In this document: piece after piece, positions 4,208-62,352 of the stretch
Layout of the letters: each line of letters begins with the position of its first letter
Position numbering within the stretch: position 1 is the first letter of the stretch
Assembly: GCF_004348545.1 (NCBI RefSeq)
Contig: NZ_SMKL01000034.1
Coordinates: 1 to 64,000, forward strand
DNA length: 64,000 nt
From: Jiangella ureilytica
GTDB taxonomy: Bacteria > Actinomycetota > Actinomycetes > Jiangellales > Jiangellaceae
Direction of reading: 5' to 3'
Made by a program: the position numbers and the translations under genes
The notes under the pieces: model-generated
The model's database searches: none
The model's input: the letters and a program-made list of their open reading frames with translations, nothing else
Told to the model about the DNA's origin: nothing

Positions 4208-4213
4208 TACCGT
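4208..4213 (+). promoter_or_regulatory. -10 hexamer TACCGT, leaderless transcript start for thrS-like leader
   Basis: TACCGT fits the actinobacterial TAnnnT -10 consensus and ends seven bases before ATG 4221, which predicts that transcription starts at that A. No convincing -35 is seen. The same hexamer and the same spacing occur before the leader peptide of the chorismate mutase gene (57585-57590). Confidence 0.5.
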
Positions 4214-4220
4214 CGGCCCC

Positions 4221-4274
4221 ATGCCGCAACGCGCGCAGCTGACGACGACGCCGGAGACCGTCCCGGCGCGCTGA
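4221..4274 (+). CDS. Threonine-rich leader peptide of the ThrRS-like gene
   Basis: The 17-residue ORF encodes MPQRAQLTTTPETVPAR, with three consecutive ACG codons and a fourth Thr codon two residues later. It begins at the predicted +1 of the transcript and has no Shine-Dalgarno sequence, so it would be translated as a leaderless message. It ends 12 bases before a strong hairpin. A CGCCGG/CCGGCG stem (4249-4254 with 4263-4268) lies just behind the Thr codons, where a stalled ribosome would cover it. This is the classic arrangement of ribosome-mediated attenuation responding to charged tRNA-Thr. Confidence 0.6.
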   Translation: MPQRAQLTTTPETVPAR

Positions 4275-4353: not shown

Positions 4354-5565
4354 ATGCACGACCACCGCAGGCTAGGCCGCGAGCTGGACCTGTTCGACAC
4401 CGATCCGCTCATCGGCGCCGGGCTGCCGTACTGGCTGCCCGGCGGCGCCGCCGTCCGCCATGCGCTCGAGCAGTACGTCCACGCCGTCGAGCGCAGGGCC
4501 GGCTACCGGCACGTGAACTCGCCCGTCCTCGGCAAACGGGAGCTGTTCGAGCTCTCCGGCCATTGGTCGCACTACAGCGACGACATGTTCCCACCCATGG
4601 ACGTGGGCGGCGAGCAGCTCGTGCTGCGGCCGAGCCTGTGCCCGCACCACGCGCTGATCTATCGCTCGCGCGGACACTCGTACCGCGAGCTGCCGCTGCG
4701 CATCGCCGAGCTGGGCGGCATGTACCGCTCGGAGCTGTCCGGCGTGCTCGGCGGGCTGACCCGGGTGCGGGCCATCCAGCTCAACGACGCGCACGTCTTC
4801 TGCGCCGAGGAGCAGGCGGCGGACGAGGCGGCCGCGGCGCTCGCGCTGATCAGGGCCGCGCACGCGGCCATGGGCATCCGGCCCGCGCGGCTGCGGCTGT
4901 CGCTGCCCGGCGCCGGCGGCACGTACGCCGGCGCACCGGCGGCCTGGCAGCGGGCCACCGAGCTGCTGGCCGACGTGCTGGAACGGTCCGGCGAGAAGTA
5001 CGAGGCCGAGGAGGGCGAGGCGGCGTTCTACGGCCCCAAGATCGACGTGCAGATCACCGACGGCGCCGGGCGCGAGTCGACCCTGTCCACCGTCCAGATC
5101 GACTTCCACCAGCCCGAGCGCTTCGGCCTCGAGTACGTGGGGGCCGACGGCGCCAGGCACCGGCCGGTCATGGTGCACCGCAGCGTCATCGGCAGCCTGG
5201 AGCGTGCGGTCGCACACCTCATCGAGGTGCACGGCGGCGCCTTCCCGCCCTGGCTGGCGCCGGTGCAGGTGGTGGTGCTGCCGGTCGCGGCGGCGCAGGA
5301 GGCCGCGGCGCACGCCGTCGTCGAGCGCTGCCTGGACGCCGGGCTGCGAGCCGAGGTCGCCGCGCCCGGACAGGGCAGCCTGGGCGCCCGCATCCGCGCC
5401 GCCCGGCTGGTCCCGTACGCCGCCGTCGTCGGAGCCCAGGAGGCCGACGGCGACGGGGTCGCCCTGAGGCTGCGGGACGGACGGCGGCTCGACCCGCTGC
5501 CGGCGGCCGAGGCCGTGGCCCGCATCTGCGCCCGGGTGGCCGCCCACGCCGCCGACCTCTGGTGA
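4354..5565 (+). CDS. Short threonyl-tRNA synthetase paralogue (catalytic and anticodon domains only)
   Basis: At 403 residues this lacks the N-terminal TGS and editing domains of the usual ~650-690-residue ThrRS. It begins directly with the catalytic core (RLGRELDLFD; motif 1 region YWLPGGAAVR) and continues through motif 2 (MYRSELSG), motif 3 (VMVHRSVIGSLER) and the anticodon domain (WLAPVQVVVLP to the C terminus). The three zinc ligands that select threonine are kept (Cys in SLCPHH, His in NDAHVFC, His in MVHRS). The normally invariant NCPGH is LCPHH, and HRNEPSG is YRSELSG. Without editing it could mischarge serine. Family precedents include resistance copies for ThrRS inhibitors; this role is inference. 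Expression is probably set by the Thr leader upstream. Confidence 0.88.
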   Translation: MHDHRRLGRELDLFDTDPLIGAGLPYWLPGGAAVRHALEQYVHAVERRAGYRHVNSPVLGKRELFELSGHWSHYSDDMFPPMDVGGEQLVLRPSLCPHHALIYRSRGHSYRELPLRIAELGGMYRSELSGVLGGLTRVRAIQLNDAHVFCAEEQAADEAAAALALIRAAHAAMGIRPARLRLSLPGAGGTYAGAPAAWQRATELLADVLERSGEKYEAEEGEAAFYGPKIDVQITDGAGRESTLSTVQIDFHQPERFGLEYVGADGARHRPVMVHRSVIGSLERAVAHLIEVHGGAFPPWLAPVQVVVLPVAAAQEAAAHAVVERCLDAGLRAEVAAPGQGSLGARIRAARLVPYAAVVGAQEADGDGVALRLRDGRRLDPLPAAEAVARICARVAAHAADLW

Positions 5566-56719: not shown

Positions 56720-57397
56720 TCACAGCCGCCAGACGGGCGGTTCGCCCGACATGTCCGCCTCGGCGGCGTCCAGCCCGGCCTCGATGATCGCCGTCACGAT
56801 GCGCCCCAGCGCCTCCGATGACAGCGACGGCGCCCGCTCGGCCATGGCGGCGACGATGGCGGCCTCGCGCCGCGGGTCGCGGCCCGCGTGCCCGCCCACC
56901 GGCTTGAGCCGCTGCACCCGTCCGGCCAGCGCCACGCGGTGCTCCAGCAGCGTCGCCAGCACGGCGTCGACGGCGTCGATGGCGGCCCGGCAGCCTTCGA
57001 GCGTGCCCGGGACCGCGGGCCGGACCAGCGGCGCGAGCCGGGTGGCGGCCTCGCGGACCTGCCCTGCCGCCGCGGTGCTCGGTGTGTCGAGCCACAACCC
57101 GTCGGCACCGGCGGCGACGGCGGCAGCTGCCAGTTCGGGGCGCTCCCCCAGGTTCGCGACGACGGGCAGCCCGTGCCGCCGCGCGGCGGCGATCGCGACC
57201 GGGTCGACACCGTCGACGACGGTGACCGAGCCGGCCGGCACGTCGGCGTGATCGAGATCGCCGCCGGCCCCCGCCGGTGCGACGACGGGCGGCACCGGTC
57301 CGCCGAAGGGCGCGGCCGGGCGCCGCTGGTCTGCGGGCGGCGCGGCCGCCCCGGTGCGGGTGGCGGCTTCGGTGCCGTGGTGCGGGGATGCGGTCAC
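56720..57397 (-). CDS. Chorismate mutase (AroQ fold) with DAHP-synthase-like N-terminal remnant
   Basis: In this 225-residue protein, residues ~140-215 form an AroQ-type all-helical chorismate mutase (RAAIDAVDAVLATLLEHRVALAGRVQRLK, GGHAGRDPRREAAIVAAMAERA, LGRIVTAIIEAGLDA), which turns chorismate into prephenate for Phe and Tyr. Residues ~55-115 read like the end of a TIM barrel (VDGVDPVAIAAARRHGLPVVANLGERPELAAAAVAAGADGLWLDTP) and recall the C-terminal strands of type I DAHP synthase, without its catalytic residues. GTG 57397 has AGGAG six bases upstream. A leaderless leader peptide and attenuator-like hairpins precede it. Confidence 0.82.
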   Translation of the reverse strand: MTASPHHGTEAATRTGAAAPPADQRRPAAPFGGPVPPVVAPAGAGGDLDHADVPAGSVTVVDGVDPVAIAAARRHGLPVVANLGERPELAAAAVAAGADGLWLDTPSTAAAGQVREAATRLAPLVRPAVPGTLEGCRAAIDAVDAVLATLLEHRVALAGRVQRLKPVGGHAGRDPRREAAIVAAMAERAPSLSSEALGRIVTAIIEAGLDAAEADMSGEPPVWRL

Positions 57398-57448
57398 GGG
57401 ATGCTCCTGTTCCGGTGAGCAGCCGTCCGCTGGAGGAGCCGGCCGCTC

Positions 57449-57491
57449 GGGGCCACATGACGAGAGGCCCCAGGCCGGAGCCTGAAGCCTC
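57449..57491 (-). terminator. Attenuator-like alternative hairpins before chorismate mutase gene
   Basis: GGGGCC (57449-57454) pairs with GGCCCC (57466-57471) as a possible terminator stem with an 11-base loop. The competing antiterminator pairs GAGGC (57464-57468) with GCCTC (57487-57491). The shared bases 57466-57468 make the two mutually exclusive. They lie between the leader peptide stop and the mutase start. No U tract follows the stem. Confidence 0.45.
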
Positions 57492-57517
57492 GTGAGCCGA
57501 CTCGGAGGAAGGCCGCG

Positions 57518-57577
57518 CTACGCCTCGACGCGGCCGGCCGCCCGGGCCGGCTCGGTAAAGACGAGGGACGTTCGCAT
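57518..57577 (-). CDS. Leader peptide of the chorismate mutase gene
   Basis: The 19-residue ORF encodes MRTSLVFTEPARAAGRVEA. Its single Phe codon is UUU, very rare in this GC-rich DNA, and falls early in the peptide. ATG 57577 lies exactly seven bases after a TACCGT -10 hexamer, so translation is probably leaderless. The arrangement copies the Thr leader at 4221. A response to phenylalanyl-tRNA would fit a Phe/Tyr branch enzyme, but the peptide has no run of Phe or Tyr codons. Confidence 0.5.
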   Translation of the reverse strand: MRTSLVFTEPARAAGRVEA

Positions 57578-57584
57578 GACGGCG

Positions 57585-57590
57585 ACGGTA
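57585..57590 (-). promoter_or_regulatory. -10 hexamer TACCGT of chorismate mutase leader
   Basis: On the minus strand TACCGT is separated by seven bases from the leader ATG at 57577, the same hexamer and spacing as at 4208-4213. No clear -35 element is visible. The region beyond contains only the 3' end of the SARP gene. Confidence 0.45.
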
Positions 57591-57659
57591 CCGGCGGCTC
57601 CCGCGCGTGTCCACCACGCGGACCGAGCGGATCGCATGGCGAGACGACGCCGGGCGGGC

Positions 57660-60600
57660 CTATCGGGCGCGGAGCGCCTCGCGGCAGGCCGCCGCCACCT
57701 CGCGGGCCGCGGCCAGCGGCGCCGTCCAGCCGGTCCGTTCCGCCGCGGCCTCCAAGGGGGCGAGCAGCTCGGCCGCGCCGGCGGGATCGCCGTGCCGGAG
57801 CCGGGCCCGCGCGAGCGCCACATGGGTGTCCGCGCCGTAGAGCCAGGCCGACCCGGGCGGCGCGGTGATGGCCCGCACCATCGCACCGGCTTCGTCGAGC
57901 AGCTCCGGCGAGTCGGTCGCGGCGGCCAGGGCAGCCAGACAGGGCAGCCGGTAGGCCTCGGTGCTGTGCCGGCCGGCCACCGCCAGTCCGCGCTCGAGCA
58001 GCGCGACGGCCTCCGTGCTCTGGTCCAGGTCGAGCAGCGTGGTGGCATAGGTGGCCAGGCTGGACGCGCTGAACCAGGCGTGCGCCTGCAGCGTGAGCGA
58101 CCGGCGGCCGTGCCGGACGGCGTCGTCGTACCGGCCGCCCAGCCGCGCGATCCAGCCGAGGTTCGACACGTACCAGGACTCGTAGCCGCTGTACCCGCTG
58201 CGCCGGTTGACCGCCAGCGCCTCCTCGACCCGCGCGGTGGCCGTGTCCCAGTCGCCGCGGGCGATCGCCGGGAAGGCGGACTCGAACACGCACCACTGCA
58301 GCAGCCACAGGTCGCCGGAGCGGCGGCACAGCGGCTCCAGCTCGGCCAGGACGCCGCCCAGTTCCCGCACCTCGCCGAGGTAGGCGTGGGCGGTCTTCAC
58401 GCCGTCGAGCGCCAGGGCGAGGGCGTCGTCGTCGCCGATGTCGCGGGCCAGCGCCAGCGCCCGCCGGCCGTAGGCCAGGGCGTCGTCGAAACGCAGCCGG
58501 TTGGACGAGAGCACCGAGAGCCAGGCCAGCAGCTCCGACTCCGCCGGCCGGTCGCCCAGCAGCTGGGCCAGGCGCAGGCTCTCCTCGAGGTGCACCGTCC
58601 CCTCGGCGACCGGCCGCCCGCCGCCCGCCCAGGCCGGTCCGCCCAGCTGGCGCAGGGCCCGCATCTCCAGAGGCCGGTCGCCGGCCGCGCGCGCCGCCCG
58701 CAGCGCCTGCGCGTGGTCGGCCACGGCGTCGTCGTAGCGGTACATCGCCTCGCGCGCCCGGCCCCTGGCCAGGTGCGCCCGCCCGTCGAGCCCGACGTCG
58801 CCGCTGCGGCCGGCCGCGTCGAGGGCCTGGCTCAGGAGGGCCTCGGCGTCGCCGACGGCGTAGCGGCGCAGGGCCTGCTCCCCCGCGGCCAGCCAGCCCG
58901 GCCCGGCGCGCGCCCAGTCGCCCGCCGCGCCGGCGTGCCAGCCGACCGCCTCCGGGTTGCCGGCCTGCACGTCGGCGGCGCGCAGGTGGTAGGCCACCCG
59001 GGTCGGCTCCGGCGTCGCCGAGTAGAGGGTCTCCTGGACGAGGTCGTTCTCGAACTCGTACGAGCGGCCGGCCACCACGAGCAGCCGCGTGGGCAGGATC
59101 CGGTGGCAGCGCCGCGCCGCCTCCTGCGCGCTGAGGTCGAGCACACCGGCCAGGGTCATCGGCGTGAACGACGTGCCGAGCACGGCGGCGGCGTGCAGCA
59201 GCTCCTCGGCCTGCGGGCCGGCGCGGCGCACCCGGGCCATGACGCTGGCGCGCAGCGAGTCCGGGATCCCGTCGTCGCCGGCGGCCAGCGCGCGCAGCGT
59301 CTCGACCACGAACAGCGTGTGGCCGCGGGTGCGCCGGGCGATCTCCGCCCCGTGCGCCTCCTGGCCGGCCTCGGCGGCGAGCCGTGCGATCGCCGCCTCG
59401 TCGAGCGGGCCGACATCGAGGCGCTCGGCGACGCCGGCCAGCGTCGCGAGGACCCGCTCGCCCTCATCGGCCCGGACCGTCCCGACGACCAGCAGCCGGT
59501 CGCCGGCCGTGCGCCGGCCGAGGTAGTGCAGCAGCTCGACGGTGGCGGCACCGGCGTTGTGGAGGTCGTCGATGATGAACACGAGAGGCTGCCGAGCGGC
59601 CAGCCGGCGCAGGAACACGACGACCGCGTCGTAGATCCGGGCCCGCTCGGCCGCCGCGCTGCGCCGCTCCGGCGGCGGCTCGCCCAGTAGCGCCGCCACC
59701 TCCGGCACCAGCGCGGCCAGGGCACCGGCCCGGTCCGCGGCGGCCTGGCGCAGCGCCGGCACCGGCAGCCGCGTGACCAGCCGGCCCAGCGCTTCGGCCA
59801 CCGGCTGCAGGAACAGCGAGCGCTCGACGTCGTAGCAGCGCGCCTCGAGGGTGCGCCCGCCGGTCCGCAGCGCGATCCGCGCGGCCTCGTCGGCCAGTGC
59901 GGTCTTGCCGATCCCGGCCTCGCCGGCGAGCAGCACCAAGGCGCCGTCGCCGGCCACCGTGCGCTCCCATCGCCGGGTCAGCCGGGTGAGCTCGGACTCC
60001 CGCCCCGCCAGCCGGCCGGCCGCCGGGACCGACGCCGCCGGGACCGACGCGGCCGCCGACGCCGCCGACGCCGGCGCCACCTGCTGGCGCAGGATGGCGA
60101 CGTGCAGCTCGCGGGTCGACGGCGCCGGGTCGATGCCCAGTTCGGCGGCGAGGCCGGCGCGCAGGCGCTCGAACACCGCCAGGGCGCGGGCCGGCTCGCC
60201 GGCGGCGTCATAGGCGCGCATCAGCGCCCGCGCCGGCCGTTCGTCCAGCGGCTCGGCCTCGGCCGCCGCCTCCGCCGCGGCGAGCGCCGCCGCGACGTCG
60301 CCGGTGCGCAGGCCGGCCTCGGCGGCCACAGCGCGGGCCCGGGCGATCACGTCGGCCTGGTGTCGCCGGCCCTCGCCCGCCCAGGGCGCGTCGGCCTCCT
60401 CCGCGAGCAGCGGCGCCGCGCCGACGAGCTCCAGCGCCGCCTGGGCGGCTGCCAGGGCGATCGCCGGTTCCGCGTTCGCCAGCCGGATCTCGGCCTCGCA
60501 GGCCAGCTCCGCCGCCCGGTGCAGGTCCACCTGGGCGTCGTCGCCGAGACGGTAGCCGGACCGGCCGCCGGCCACGACGTCCGGGCCGAGGGCCGCCCGC

Positions 60601-60839
60601 AACCGGCTCACCAGGGTGGCCACGCTCGCCGCCGGCCGCCTCGGCCCCTGGCCGGGCCACAGCGCCTCGACGATGTGGTCGACGGTGACCAGCCGGCCAC
60701 CCGCGACGGCGAGCAGGGCCAGCAGAGTCCGGCCCTTGCGGTCGCCCACCTCGCCGGCGGGCAGTGCCCGGCCCGCTCGCACCACCGTCAGCCCACCGGC
60801 CAGACGCACCTGCAGCTCAGCCCCGTCCGCGGCGTCCAC
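57660..60839 (-). CDS. SARP-family regulator with BTAD, AAA ATPase and TPR-like region
   Basis: The ~1059-residue protein has a winged helix (LQVRLAGGLTVVRAGRALPAGEVGDRKGRTLLALLAVAGGRLVTVDHIVEALWPGQ) and a BTAD domain (ending AELGIDPAPSTRELHVAIL). An AAA_16 ATPase follows (Walker A LLAGEAGIGKTALADEAA; Walker B LVFIIDDLHNAG). A long helical repeat region has TPR character. It is divergent from an FAD oxidase gene with 118 bases between, which hold 11-bp spaced direct repeats of the SARP-binding type. GTG 60839 is chosen because it starts just before the wing; the longer frame upstream overlaps the oxidase. Confidence 0.9.
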   Translation of the reverse strand: MDAADGAELQVRLAGGLTVVRAGRALPAGEVGDRKGRTLLALLAVAGGRLVTVDHIVEALWPGQGPRRPAASVATLVSRLRAALGPDVVAGGRSGYRLGDDAQVDLHRAAELACEAEIRLANAEPAIALAAAQAALELVGAAPLLAEEADAPWAGEGRRHQADVIARARAVAAEAGLRTGDVAAALAAAEAAAEAEPLDERPARALMRAYDAAGEPARALAVFERLRAGLAAELGIDPAPSTRELHVAILRQQVAPASAASAAASVPAASVPAAGRLAGRESELTRLTRRWERTVAGDGALVLLAGEAGIGKTALADEAARIALRTGGRTLEARCYDVERSLFLQPVAEALGRLVTRLPVPALRQAAADRAGALAALVPEVAALLGEPPPERRSAAAERARIYDAVVVFLRRLAARQPLVFIIDDLHNAGAATVELLHYLGRRTAGDRLLVVGTVRADEGERVLATLAGVAERLDVGPLDEAAIARLAAEAGQEAHGAEIARRTRGHTLFVVETLRALAAGDDGIPDSLRASVMARVRRAGPQAEELLHAAAVLGTSFTPMTLAGVLDLSAQEAARRCHRILPTRLLVVAGRSYEFENDLVQETLYSATPEPTRVAYHLRAADVQAGNPEAVGWHAGAAGDWARAGPGWLAAGEQALRRYAVGDAEALLSQALDAAGRSGDVGLDGRAHLARGRAREAMYRYDDAVADHAQALRAARAAGDRPLEMRALRQLGGPAWAGGGRPVAEGTVHLEESLRLAQLLGDRPAESELLAWLSVLSSNRLRFDDALAYGRRALALARDIGDDDALALALDGVKTAHAYLGEVRELGGVLAELEPLCRRSGDLWLLQWCVFESAFPAIARGDWDTATARVEEALAVNRRSGYSGYESWYVSNLGWIARLGGRYDDAVRHGRRSLTLQAHAWFSASSLATYATTLLDLDQSTEAVALLERGLAVAGRHSTEAYRLPCLAALAAATDSPELLDEAGAMVRAITAPPGSAWLYGADTHVALARARLRHGDPAGAAELLAPLEAAAERTGWTAPLAAAREVAAACREALRAR

Positions 60840-60888
60840 CCCCCTGTCCCCGGTCGTACTCCTGATGTCCGCGCAGGTCAAGAGGCGA

Positions 60889-60921
60889 CCGCAACGCCAC
60901 CGCAACGGGCCGTGGCACCGT
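60889..60921 (+). promoter_or_regulatory. SARP-type direct repeats and -10 before FAD oxidase
   Basis: CCGCAACG occurs at 60889-60896 and again at 60900-60907, exactly 11 bp apart. CACCGT, a plausible -10, begins eight bases after the second repeat. SARP proteins bind heptamer repeats at 11-bp spacing with the last repeat eight bases upstream of the -10 (family knowledge), so the layout fits activation of the oxidase gene by the adjacent SARP. Confidence 0.55.
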
Positions 60922-60957
60922 CGCGCCGTCCGAGAAGACCGCACCACGGGGGATGCC

Positions 60958-62352
60958 ATGAGTACCGCCATCGAGACCGGGCGCGTCGCGCACCGCGAGC
61001 TCACCGACGTCCGGGGCCGGCTGACCGGGCCGGAGGATCCCGGCTACGACGAGGCCCGCAAGGTCTACAACGCCATGATCGACCGGCGCCCCGCGCTGAT
61101 CGCGCGGTGCGCCGACGCCGACGACGTCGCGCGCGTCGTCGGCTTCGCGCGCGAGCACGGGCTGCCGCTCGCCGTGCGCGGCGGCGGCCACAACGGGGGT
61201 GGCCTGGGGGTCGTCGACGACGGCGTCGTCATCGACCTCGGCGATCTGCGCGAGGTCACCGTCGACCCGCAGGCCCGGACGGCGCGCGTCGGCGGCGGCT
61301 GCACGTGGGGCGAGGTCGACCGGGCGACGAACGCCTACGGCCTGGCCACGCCGAGCGGGATCATCTCGACCACCGGCGTCGGCGGGCTCACGCTCGGCGG
61401 CGGCCTCGGTCACCTGACCCGCGCGTTCGGCCTGGCCATCGACAACCTGCTCGAGGTCGAGATGGTGCTGGCCGACGGCGAACGAGTGTCGGCCAGCGCG
61501 GCCGAGCACCCCGACCTGTTCTGGGCCGTCCGCGGGGGCGGCGGCAACTTCGGGGTCGTGACGTCGTTCCTGTTCCGCCTGCACGAGCTCGACACCGTCG
61601 TCGCCGGGCCGACGTTCTGGCCGGTCGAGCAGACCGCCGAGGTGCTTGCGGCCTACCGCGACTTCCTGCCGTCGGCGCCGCGCGCGCTGAACGGGTTCTT
61701 CCTGGTGGGAGCCGTGCCGCCGGCGCCGCCGTTCCCCGAGGAGCTGCACCTGCGCACGATCTGCGGCGTCGTCTGGTGCCACGTCGGCACCCCGGAGCAC
61801 GCAGCCGCCGACATGGCCCCGTTCCTGGCCGCGCTGCCCGAGCCGCTCCTGCACGCGCCCGCGCCGATGCCGCACCCGATGCTGCAGAGCGCCTTCGACG
61901 GGCTCTACCCGCCGGGCGACCAGTGGTACTGGCGGGCGGACTTCGTCAAGGAGATCCCGGACGAGGCCGTGGCGATCCACGCCGACTTCGGCGCCCGGCT
62001 GCCCACGTGGAAGTCGACCATGCATCTCTACCCGGTTGACGGCGCCGCCCACGACGCCGGGCCCGCCGACACCGCCTGGAGCTACCGGGACGCGCTCTGG
62101 GGCTCCGTCTTCGCCGGGGTGGACGCCGATCCGGCCAACGTCGGGCGCATCAGCGCGTGGTCGAAGGAGTACTTCGGGGCGCTGCACCCGTACTCGGCCG
62201 GCGGGGCGTACGTGAACATGATGATGGACGAGGGCGAGGAGCGGGTCCGGGCCAGCTACCGCGGCAACTACGAGCGGCTGGCCAGGGTCAAGGCGCAGTA
62301 CGACCCGGGCAACCTGTTCCGGGTCAACCAGAACATCCGGCCGGTGGGCTAG
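60958..62352 (+). CDS. FAD-linked oxidase (berberine-bridge-enzyme type)
   Basis: The 464-residue protein has a PCMH-type FAD domain (ADDVARVVGFAREHGLPLAVRGGGHNGGG with the flavin-linking His; GVGGLTLGGGLGHLTRAFG) and a C-terminal BBE domain (VNMMMDEGEERVRASYRGNYERLARVKAQYDPGNLFRVNQNI). The usual second flavin-linking Cys before VGVGG is absent (SGIISTTGVGG), so attachment is probably by His only. The substrate is unknown; relatives oxidise sugars or natural products. There is no signal peptide. The stop codon TAG belongs to the CTAG target of the following MITE. Confidence 0.9.
   Translation: MSTAIETGRVAHRELTDVRGRLTGPEDPGYDEARKVYNAMIDRRPALIARCADADDVARVVGFAREHGLPLAVRGGGHNGGGLGVVDDGVVIDLGDLREVTVDPQARTARVGGGCTWGEVDRATNAYGLATPSGIISTTGVGGLTLGGGLGHLTRAFGLAIDNLLEVEMVLADGERVSASAAEHPDLFWAVRGGGGNFGVVTSFLFRLHELDTVVAGPTFWPVEQTAEVLAAYRDFLPSAPRALNGFFLVGAVPPAPPFPEELHLRTICGVVWCHVGTPEHAAADMAPFLAALPEPLLHAPAPMPHPMLQSAFDGLYPPGDQWYWRADFVKEIPDEAVAIHADFGARLPTWKSTMHLYPVDGAAHDAGPADTAWSYRDALWGSVFAGVDADPANVGRISAWSKEYFGALHPYSAGGAYVNMMMDEGEERVRASYRGNYERLARVKAQYDPGNLFRVNQNIRPVG

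Follow-up and report, generated by a model that had tools for sequence, protein, structure and literature searches.

The chorismate mutase (CM) gene of Jiangella ureilytica is preceded by a conserved leader open reading frame (ORF) with a rare Phe control codon behind a promoter of set spacing, by the RNA helices A:C2 and B:C1, and by a hairpin at a position where most relatives have a terminator, and a sister element stands before a DAHP-synthase gene of the same genome. Most probably the element is a ribosome-mediated attenuator that senses Phe and controls the chorismate mutase gene. The locus lies on the minus strand of the stretch of DNA that was analysed (64,000 nucleotides of contig NZ_SMKL01000034.1; the window), and its features are collected in Table 1. 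A preliminary description of the window had suggested Phe-responsive attenuation by way of two mutually exclusive stems. The leader, the control codon and the link to CM have held up, but the stems have not, and termination in Jiangella itself is uncertain.

Table 1. Features of the chorismate mutase leader locus (window positions)
Feature	Position	Strand	Remark
-35-like TGGACA	57608..57613	-	17 nt 5' of the -10 element; read from sequence
-10 element TACCGT	57585..57590	-	7 nt 5' of leader ATG 57577
Leader ORF MRTSLVFTEPARAAGRVEA, 19 residues	57518..57577	-	predicted from sequence and conservation
Control codon UUU (Phe7)	57557..57559	-	TTT in 110 of 116 model-detected CM leaders
Segment A (GAGCCGGCCCGG)	57542..57553	-	shortly 3' of the control codon; partner B or C2
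Segment B (GGCCGCG)	57529..57535	-	partner C1 around the stop codon; helix 2
Segment C1 (CGCGGCC)	57511..57517	-	helix 2 with B
Segment C2 (CCGAGTCGGCTC)	57494..57505	-	pairs with A (helix 1), with a single C.A mismatch in the window copy
Hairpin ACGAGGCTTCAGGC...CTCTCGT, U-run poor	57460..57493	-	located where the other family has its canonical terminator
Mutase Shine-Dalgarno sequence, AGGAG	57404..57408	-	from sequence
Chorismate mutase gene, GTG start 57397, 225 aa	56720..57397	-	CM_2 at residues 136-207

Read on the minus strand, the promoter and leader start have the geometry given in the preliminary description, and GTGGAC recurs in the -35-like region of most of the aligned Jiangella leaders. 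The transcript is predicted to be leaderless, starting at the A of the leader AUG. Phe7 is the sole Phe codon of the window leader and is spelled TTT, where four neighbouring genes have one TTT against 67 TTC; its rarity had been pointed out before, and conservation now marks it as a retained control codon. Tyr codons in the genes of the window are TAT in 4 cases and TAC in 71. The gene behind the leader encodes a type II chorismate mutase (CM_2 domain, E=1.1e-11), an identity that was anticipated together with its ribosome-binding site. The 5' neighbour of the leader locus is a gene for a BTAD-type regulator (57660-61004), and dnaE is the next gene 3' of the mutase.

The same promoter geometry had been noticed at the thrS locus of the window, and it is indeed there: on the plus strand, TACCGT at 4208-4213 stands 7 nt before an ATG at 4221 that opens the ORF MPQRAQLTTTPETVPAR (leader region 4208-4274), a predicted leaderless Thr leader 5' of the threonine--tRNA ligase gene (thrS, 4354-5565; TIGR00418). 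A TACCGT-type promoter with a start codon is by itself not rare, occurring with a 7-nt gap at 5 places on both strands of the 64 kb. The signal beyond chance is the conservation across CM loci, the promoter spacing and the covariation in the folded RNA.

Evidence of conservation begins within the genus, where the leader is present in all 12 genomes, mostly as MRTYLAFIEPARVAGRVEA or a near form (in G002 and G006 on a contig other than that with most of the mutase gene). Position 4 varies among Tyr, Phe and Ser, and Phe7 is constant as TTT. At a locus of another genus of the same family (L015), the promoter, the Phe codon and the A:C2 complementarity are all lost together; this locus gave no element at E 0.001 and 20.7 bits in a smaller search. 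A protein search with the homologue at L017 found matches in 196 of the 200 genomes of family f17, non-mutases among them, as true DAHP synthases also match. Upstream regions were read at 30 loci and in 80 fetched stretches, and a pattern search requiring Phe and an in-frame start returned 108 leaders from 127 loci. Because the pattern asks for Phe (with one alternative, for L015), these 108 leaders cannot prove that Phe is conserved. A covariance model, R1, was built from 104 of them; covariance models took over from an exact-pattern search for the leader core, which had hit 14 of 393 genomes, twelve with the leader and two by chance (G270 and G333).

Orthologous loci without the ORF, or a Phe codon that drifts freely, had been named beforehand as findings that would count against attenuation. 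Over the CM loci, R1 detects the element in 116 of 125, and the aligned control codon is TTT in 110, TTC in 3 and another codon in 3 (L098, L106 and L140), so that Phe is kept in 113 of the 116. The pattern search supplied three of the 125 loci (L031, L036 and L037). Nine CM loci gave no element at E 0.001 (L015, L087, L105, L122, L123, L134, L135, L143 and L151), and the fetched stretches of L134 and L135 may stop short of it. The count leaves aside L130 and L132, which are too short, L042, which repeats L017, and L011, L013, L016 and L018-L020, which are cut contigs or distant matches. Promoter spacing provides a further line of evidence: 107 of the 108 leaders have TANNNT at 6-8 nt upstream of their start, whereas among the ATG/GTG codons of the loci analysed 85 of 9307 are preceded by it (gap 5-8). 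The in-frame start was part of the leader pattern and the promoter spacing was not, and this spacing is consistent with the leaderless leader peptide that had been proposed, which is a prediction here as well.

To describe the RNA fold, we relied on alignment A2, whose 104 sequences are the basis of the covariation test. Segment A, with the consensus GCCGGCYCCGG, comes right after the Phe codon and pairs with C2 past the stop, while segment B is the end of the ORF and pairs with C1 around the stop. Helices 3 and 4, which make up the terminator, are supported over the 104 sequences, and this hairpin begins a few nucleotides after C2. Taking A:C2, B:C1 and the terminator together, 92.5% of cells are paired and 17 of 27 pairs show two-sided changes; cells with such changes number 112, where shuffles give 25.8. 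When partners of the same helices are slid, paired cells fall to 34-44%, and RNAalifold recovers the same core. In a test against 60 dinucleotide shuffles, the A:C2 duplex comes out ahead of 57 or more in 88 of 98 CM leaders and in 30 of 36 DAHP-synthase leaders, and in the latter it shows compensatory changes too. The window copy is among the 10 of 98 CM leaders that fail this test, being equalled or beaten by 8 of 60 shuffles. The A:B helix is nearly invariant, with 2 two-sided cells, a number reached by 53 of 500 shuffles, and its covariation support is weak. Alternative helices with a 5' strand that a ribosome could cover are present, A:C2 by covariation and A:B by pairing only. In alignments A3, A4 and A5 the near-palindromic core was also matched on the antisense strand; A3 was excluded from the counts, and A4 and A5 entered with the best match per locus only.

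These helices are not the ones first proposed. The hairpin placed at 57464-57491 exists and is slightly larger (57493-57460), but its mutual exclusivity with a stem at 57449-57471 is not borne out, as the conserved alternatives, A:B versus A:C2, sit upstream and neither overlaps the terminator arm. The alternative stem, 57471-57466 with 57454-57449 (GGGGCC/GGCCCC), is formable in the window and in L003, and it is weaker or altered in the other 6 of the 8 Jiangella loci printed and hence not conserved.

How the element might work can be sketched from these parts. A leaderless start at the leader AUG would let a ribosome begin a peptide with a single rare UUU, a codon that would stand only a few nucleotides before segment A in the ribosome's path. 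With enough Phe-tRNA, the ribosome would pass UUU, reach the stop and leave, whereupon A:C2 and B:C1 could form and the transcript would end at the following hairpin. With scarce Phe-tRNA, the ribosome would wait on UUU and cover A, C2 would stay free, termination would fall and the mutase would be made. We assign A:C2 to the off state because a shortage of Phe should call for the enzyme. In this scheme we infer that the ribosome stalls, that the transcript begins at the leader AUG, in which direction the system responds to Phe, and how free C2 would come to weaken termination.

Among 107 leaders, 88 passed an automatic test for a hairpin with a U-rich run, and in Jiangella a single one of 12 (L005) did so. 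In L004, L006 and L009, all from Jiangella, the hairpin is lost or shortened and the promoter, the leader and the A and C2 segments are kept. An intrinsic terminator between leader and gene is thus apparent for the family and doubtful for the window, and intrinsic termination of the Jiangella copy is less certain. Possible explanations are help from Rho or NusG, or a decayed terminator. We regard it as rather unlikely that the Jiangella leader now acts via Rho- or NusG-assisted rather than intrinsic termination: the poor U-run and the three species that have deleted or shortened the hairpin with leader and promoter retained point in this direction, whereas the DAHP-synthase sister in the same genome keeps its hairpin.

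The switching of the terminator is a weak point of the preferred reading, ribosome-mediated attenuation in response to Phe. A classical antiterminator sharing the 5' arm of the terminator was not found when truncated RNAs were folded with A masked. Pairing between this arm and C2 is weak (mean 0.22 per base with A masked and 0.001 with A free), and the predicted folds retain the terminator in every state tried (ten sequences). As no antiterminator on the terminator 5' arm was found, we class the element as a variant and not as a classical attenuator. With A masked, C2 is often predicted to pair instead with D (GCCGGCTC), a segment past the terminator (mean 0.57, 99 loci). This pairing, as well as the poor U-run in Jiangella, could suggest that the leader controls initiation of mutase translation, free C2 exposing or hiding the Shine-Dalgarno sequence through D. 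Such control is improbable, since the mean unpaired probability of the Shine-Dalgarno and start region is almost flat, 0.43 with C2 unavailable and 0.46 with C2 available (99 loci, with some automatically chosen starts probably wrong, e.g., L004, L066, L069 and L093), and since it leaves the canonical terminators of most relatives without a role. Shine-Dalgarno sequestration was rejected for want of a systematic accessibility change over the 99 loci.

To place the CM leader among related elements, we compared it with other R1 matches. R1 has two strong matches in the genome of the window, the CM leader itself (56.9 bits) and an element at C126:7390-7506 (55.6 bits) that sits before a class I DAHP-synthase gene (TIGR00034, 492.6 bits) and carries an ORF of its own, VVAVRRYPYFAQAPGGAGRVMR, predicted to be leaderless, as well as a hairpin, GGGCAGAGAC...GTCTCTGCCC; L154 and L155, weak matches in the same genome, are unclassified. 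Across 393 Actinomycetes genomes, R1 has matches in 67. Some of these were not fetched, and among the fetched loci the 71 significant ones were classified by tblastn as 38 DAHP synthase, 32 CM and 1 tyrS. This classification replaced the picking of downstream frames, which was wrong for L189, L204, L205, L214, L215 and L220. A second model, R2, made from DAHP-synthase leaders only, picks up DAHP-synthase leaders in additional families and also CM leaders, such as that of G162 (58.4 bits), with false matches at 3 of the 10 new loci examined (L255, L259 and L260, E 1e-6 to 2e-5). The DAHP-synthase elements of other families share A:C2.

The codons of these leaders appear to follow the pathway, with Phe/Tyr before CM and Trp/Tyr/Phe before DAHP synthase. 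DAHP-synthase leaders read RWYRRF, RYPYF, YWRF, YFWF or similar, and those listed, with the tyrS one included, contain TAT and TAC in a ratio of 50:3 and TTT and TTC in a ratio of 34:5. Trp precedes the conserved Phe in none of 107 distinct CM leaders, and another Phe or Tyr does so in 91. The extra aromatic codons of the CM leaders are TAT 55, TTC 55 and TAC 18, so that in these leaders the rare spelling of Phe is special to the key codon. Judged by sequence, then, the element has a short ORF with the pathway's own codons behind its own promoter. A lone R1 element at L188 (G359:C21:266500-268120; 34.7 bits) has the leader VLTRRVYPNGSGVSRSPARP with a single Tyr codon, TAT, and the gene that follows is, as we name it from its sequence, presumably that of a tyrosyl-tRNA synthetase.

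The surroundings of the control codon bear on what is being read. The base 3' of it (57556 in the window) is A in 113 of 116 CM leaders, and G takes this place in the Jiangella DAHP-synthase leaders. The residue after Phe is Thr, Ile, Met, Ser or Arg with its first base staying A, which we read as a constraint at the level of nucleotides. That the leader is an arrest peptide, sensing a small molecule through F..PA rather than tRNA charging, is very improbable: F..P is nearly constant in the collected CM leaders, but the RNA helix, in which GCCGG is invariant, accounts for the constant P and A, the residue after Phe varies, and the control codons switch with the gene. Equally hard to credit is UUUA as a mere RNA motif, such as a binding site, with an incidental ORF, since, for all the constancy of the A, 107 of 108 leaders have a start codon that is in frame with UUU and lies where the promoter defines it, the frame is kept over distances from leader start to Phe codon of 18, 21, 24, 27 and 30 nt (77, 26, 1, 3 and 1 of 108), and further Phe/Tyr (or Trp) codons crowd just before UUU. 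A ribosomal frameshift at UUUA (+1 frame UUA) was considered by eye only, and it was dropped because the other frames of the f17 leader L042 also close just before C1.

In Escherichia coli, the pheL leader peptide has many Phe codons and a Shine-Dalgarno start. The leader described here, from an unrelated organism and before an unrelated gene, has instead a single conserved UUU and a start predicted to be leaderless, and we found no antiterminator in it. The two are alike in that a Phe leader peptide stands ahead of a chorismate mutase gene, pheL controlling that for CM-prephenate dehydratase, pheA, according to the portion of text available for PMC11802643. Closer in lineage is the AroR leader of Corynebacterium glutamicum, where Phe-Tyr-Phe codons precede aroF, a DAHP-synthase gene that is transcribed more strongly when Phe, but not when Tyr, is limiting (PMC11802643 and PMC4046766, partial texts). 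AroR-aroF likewise consists of a short leader with aromatic codons before a shikimate-pathway gene in an actinobacterium, but AroR precedes DAHP synthase, whereas the window leader precedes CM and those of its kind have Phe/Tyr codons and no Trp. The DAHP-synthase sister elements look like the same kind as AroR, a likeness drawn from the leader description.

Leader peptides of Streptomyces lividans (leuL, trpL, ilvL, thrL and others) are likewise short ORFs, most of them leaderless, that carry control codons ahead of amino-acid genes, and thrL (MKRVRPFLETTPGFVPAR) resembles the thrS leader of the window; the eight leaders in the excerpted text concern Leu, Trp, Ala, Ile, Met and Thr, with none for Phe, Tyr, DAHP synthase or CM (PMC8079986). 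With the same comparative approach in the same phylum, Seliverstov et al. in 2005 described elements for trp, cys, ilvB, leuA, leuS and ileS, including ilvB terminators with an unclear mode of regulation, and their results confine conserved structures to Trp, Cys, Leu (leuA, ilvB and leuS) and ileS (PMC1262725). A full-text literature search that misses most subscription papers listed no actinobacterial attenuator described ahead of a chorismate mutase gene, and PMC2965389, PMC4833913 and PMC13236596, searched for the relevant terms, gave no passage of relevance. In Rfam, the window matches only a tRNA at gathering scores and four element-bearing loci have no match at E up to 0.5, so that the element has no matching family there.

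A broader and more tentative reading is that these elements constitute a new family of aromatic-amino-acid attenuators spread over about ten Actinomycetes families. Codons in such a family would correspond to the pathway step that the gene serves (Trp/Tyr/Phe for DAHP synthase, Phe/Tyr for CM and Tyr for tyrS), rare U-ending codons would read the supply, and C2 would be hidden or freed beside a terminator that lacks a classical antiterminator. Control of the shikimate pathway is little described in most Actinomycetes, though many make drugs from it. If the element works as described, the first enzyme of the pathway and the enzyme at the Phe/Tyr branch would be under one RNA switch with the codon set tuned for each step. 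It would also offer a well-defined case, with more than 100 aligned natural variants, of a terminator that a stalled ribosome seems to govern although no antiterminator can be seen, which would open this step to direct testing.

Upstream of the CM leaders, TGAGAC occurs 25-110 nt before the leader start in 32 of 108 regions, against 3 of 295 in the control (57602-57687 in the window), and a GTCTC...RARAC palindrome occurs in 13 of 108 of the same regions against 0 of 295. In C. glutamicum, LtbR has the promoters of trpL and aroG among its targets (PMC11802643, partial text), so that an IclR regulator of the LtbR/NdgR type may be considered for these sites, as a lead only. The mutase protein has an N-terminal part that resembles a cut-down DAHP synthase (window 56720-57397; L017:1477-2454). 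In the L017 protein, residues 64-215 align with no more than positions 185-330 of the profile for a bifunctional DAHP synthase/CM, at a score far under the cut-off of that model, and the Jiangella protein is shorter still.
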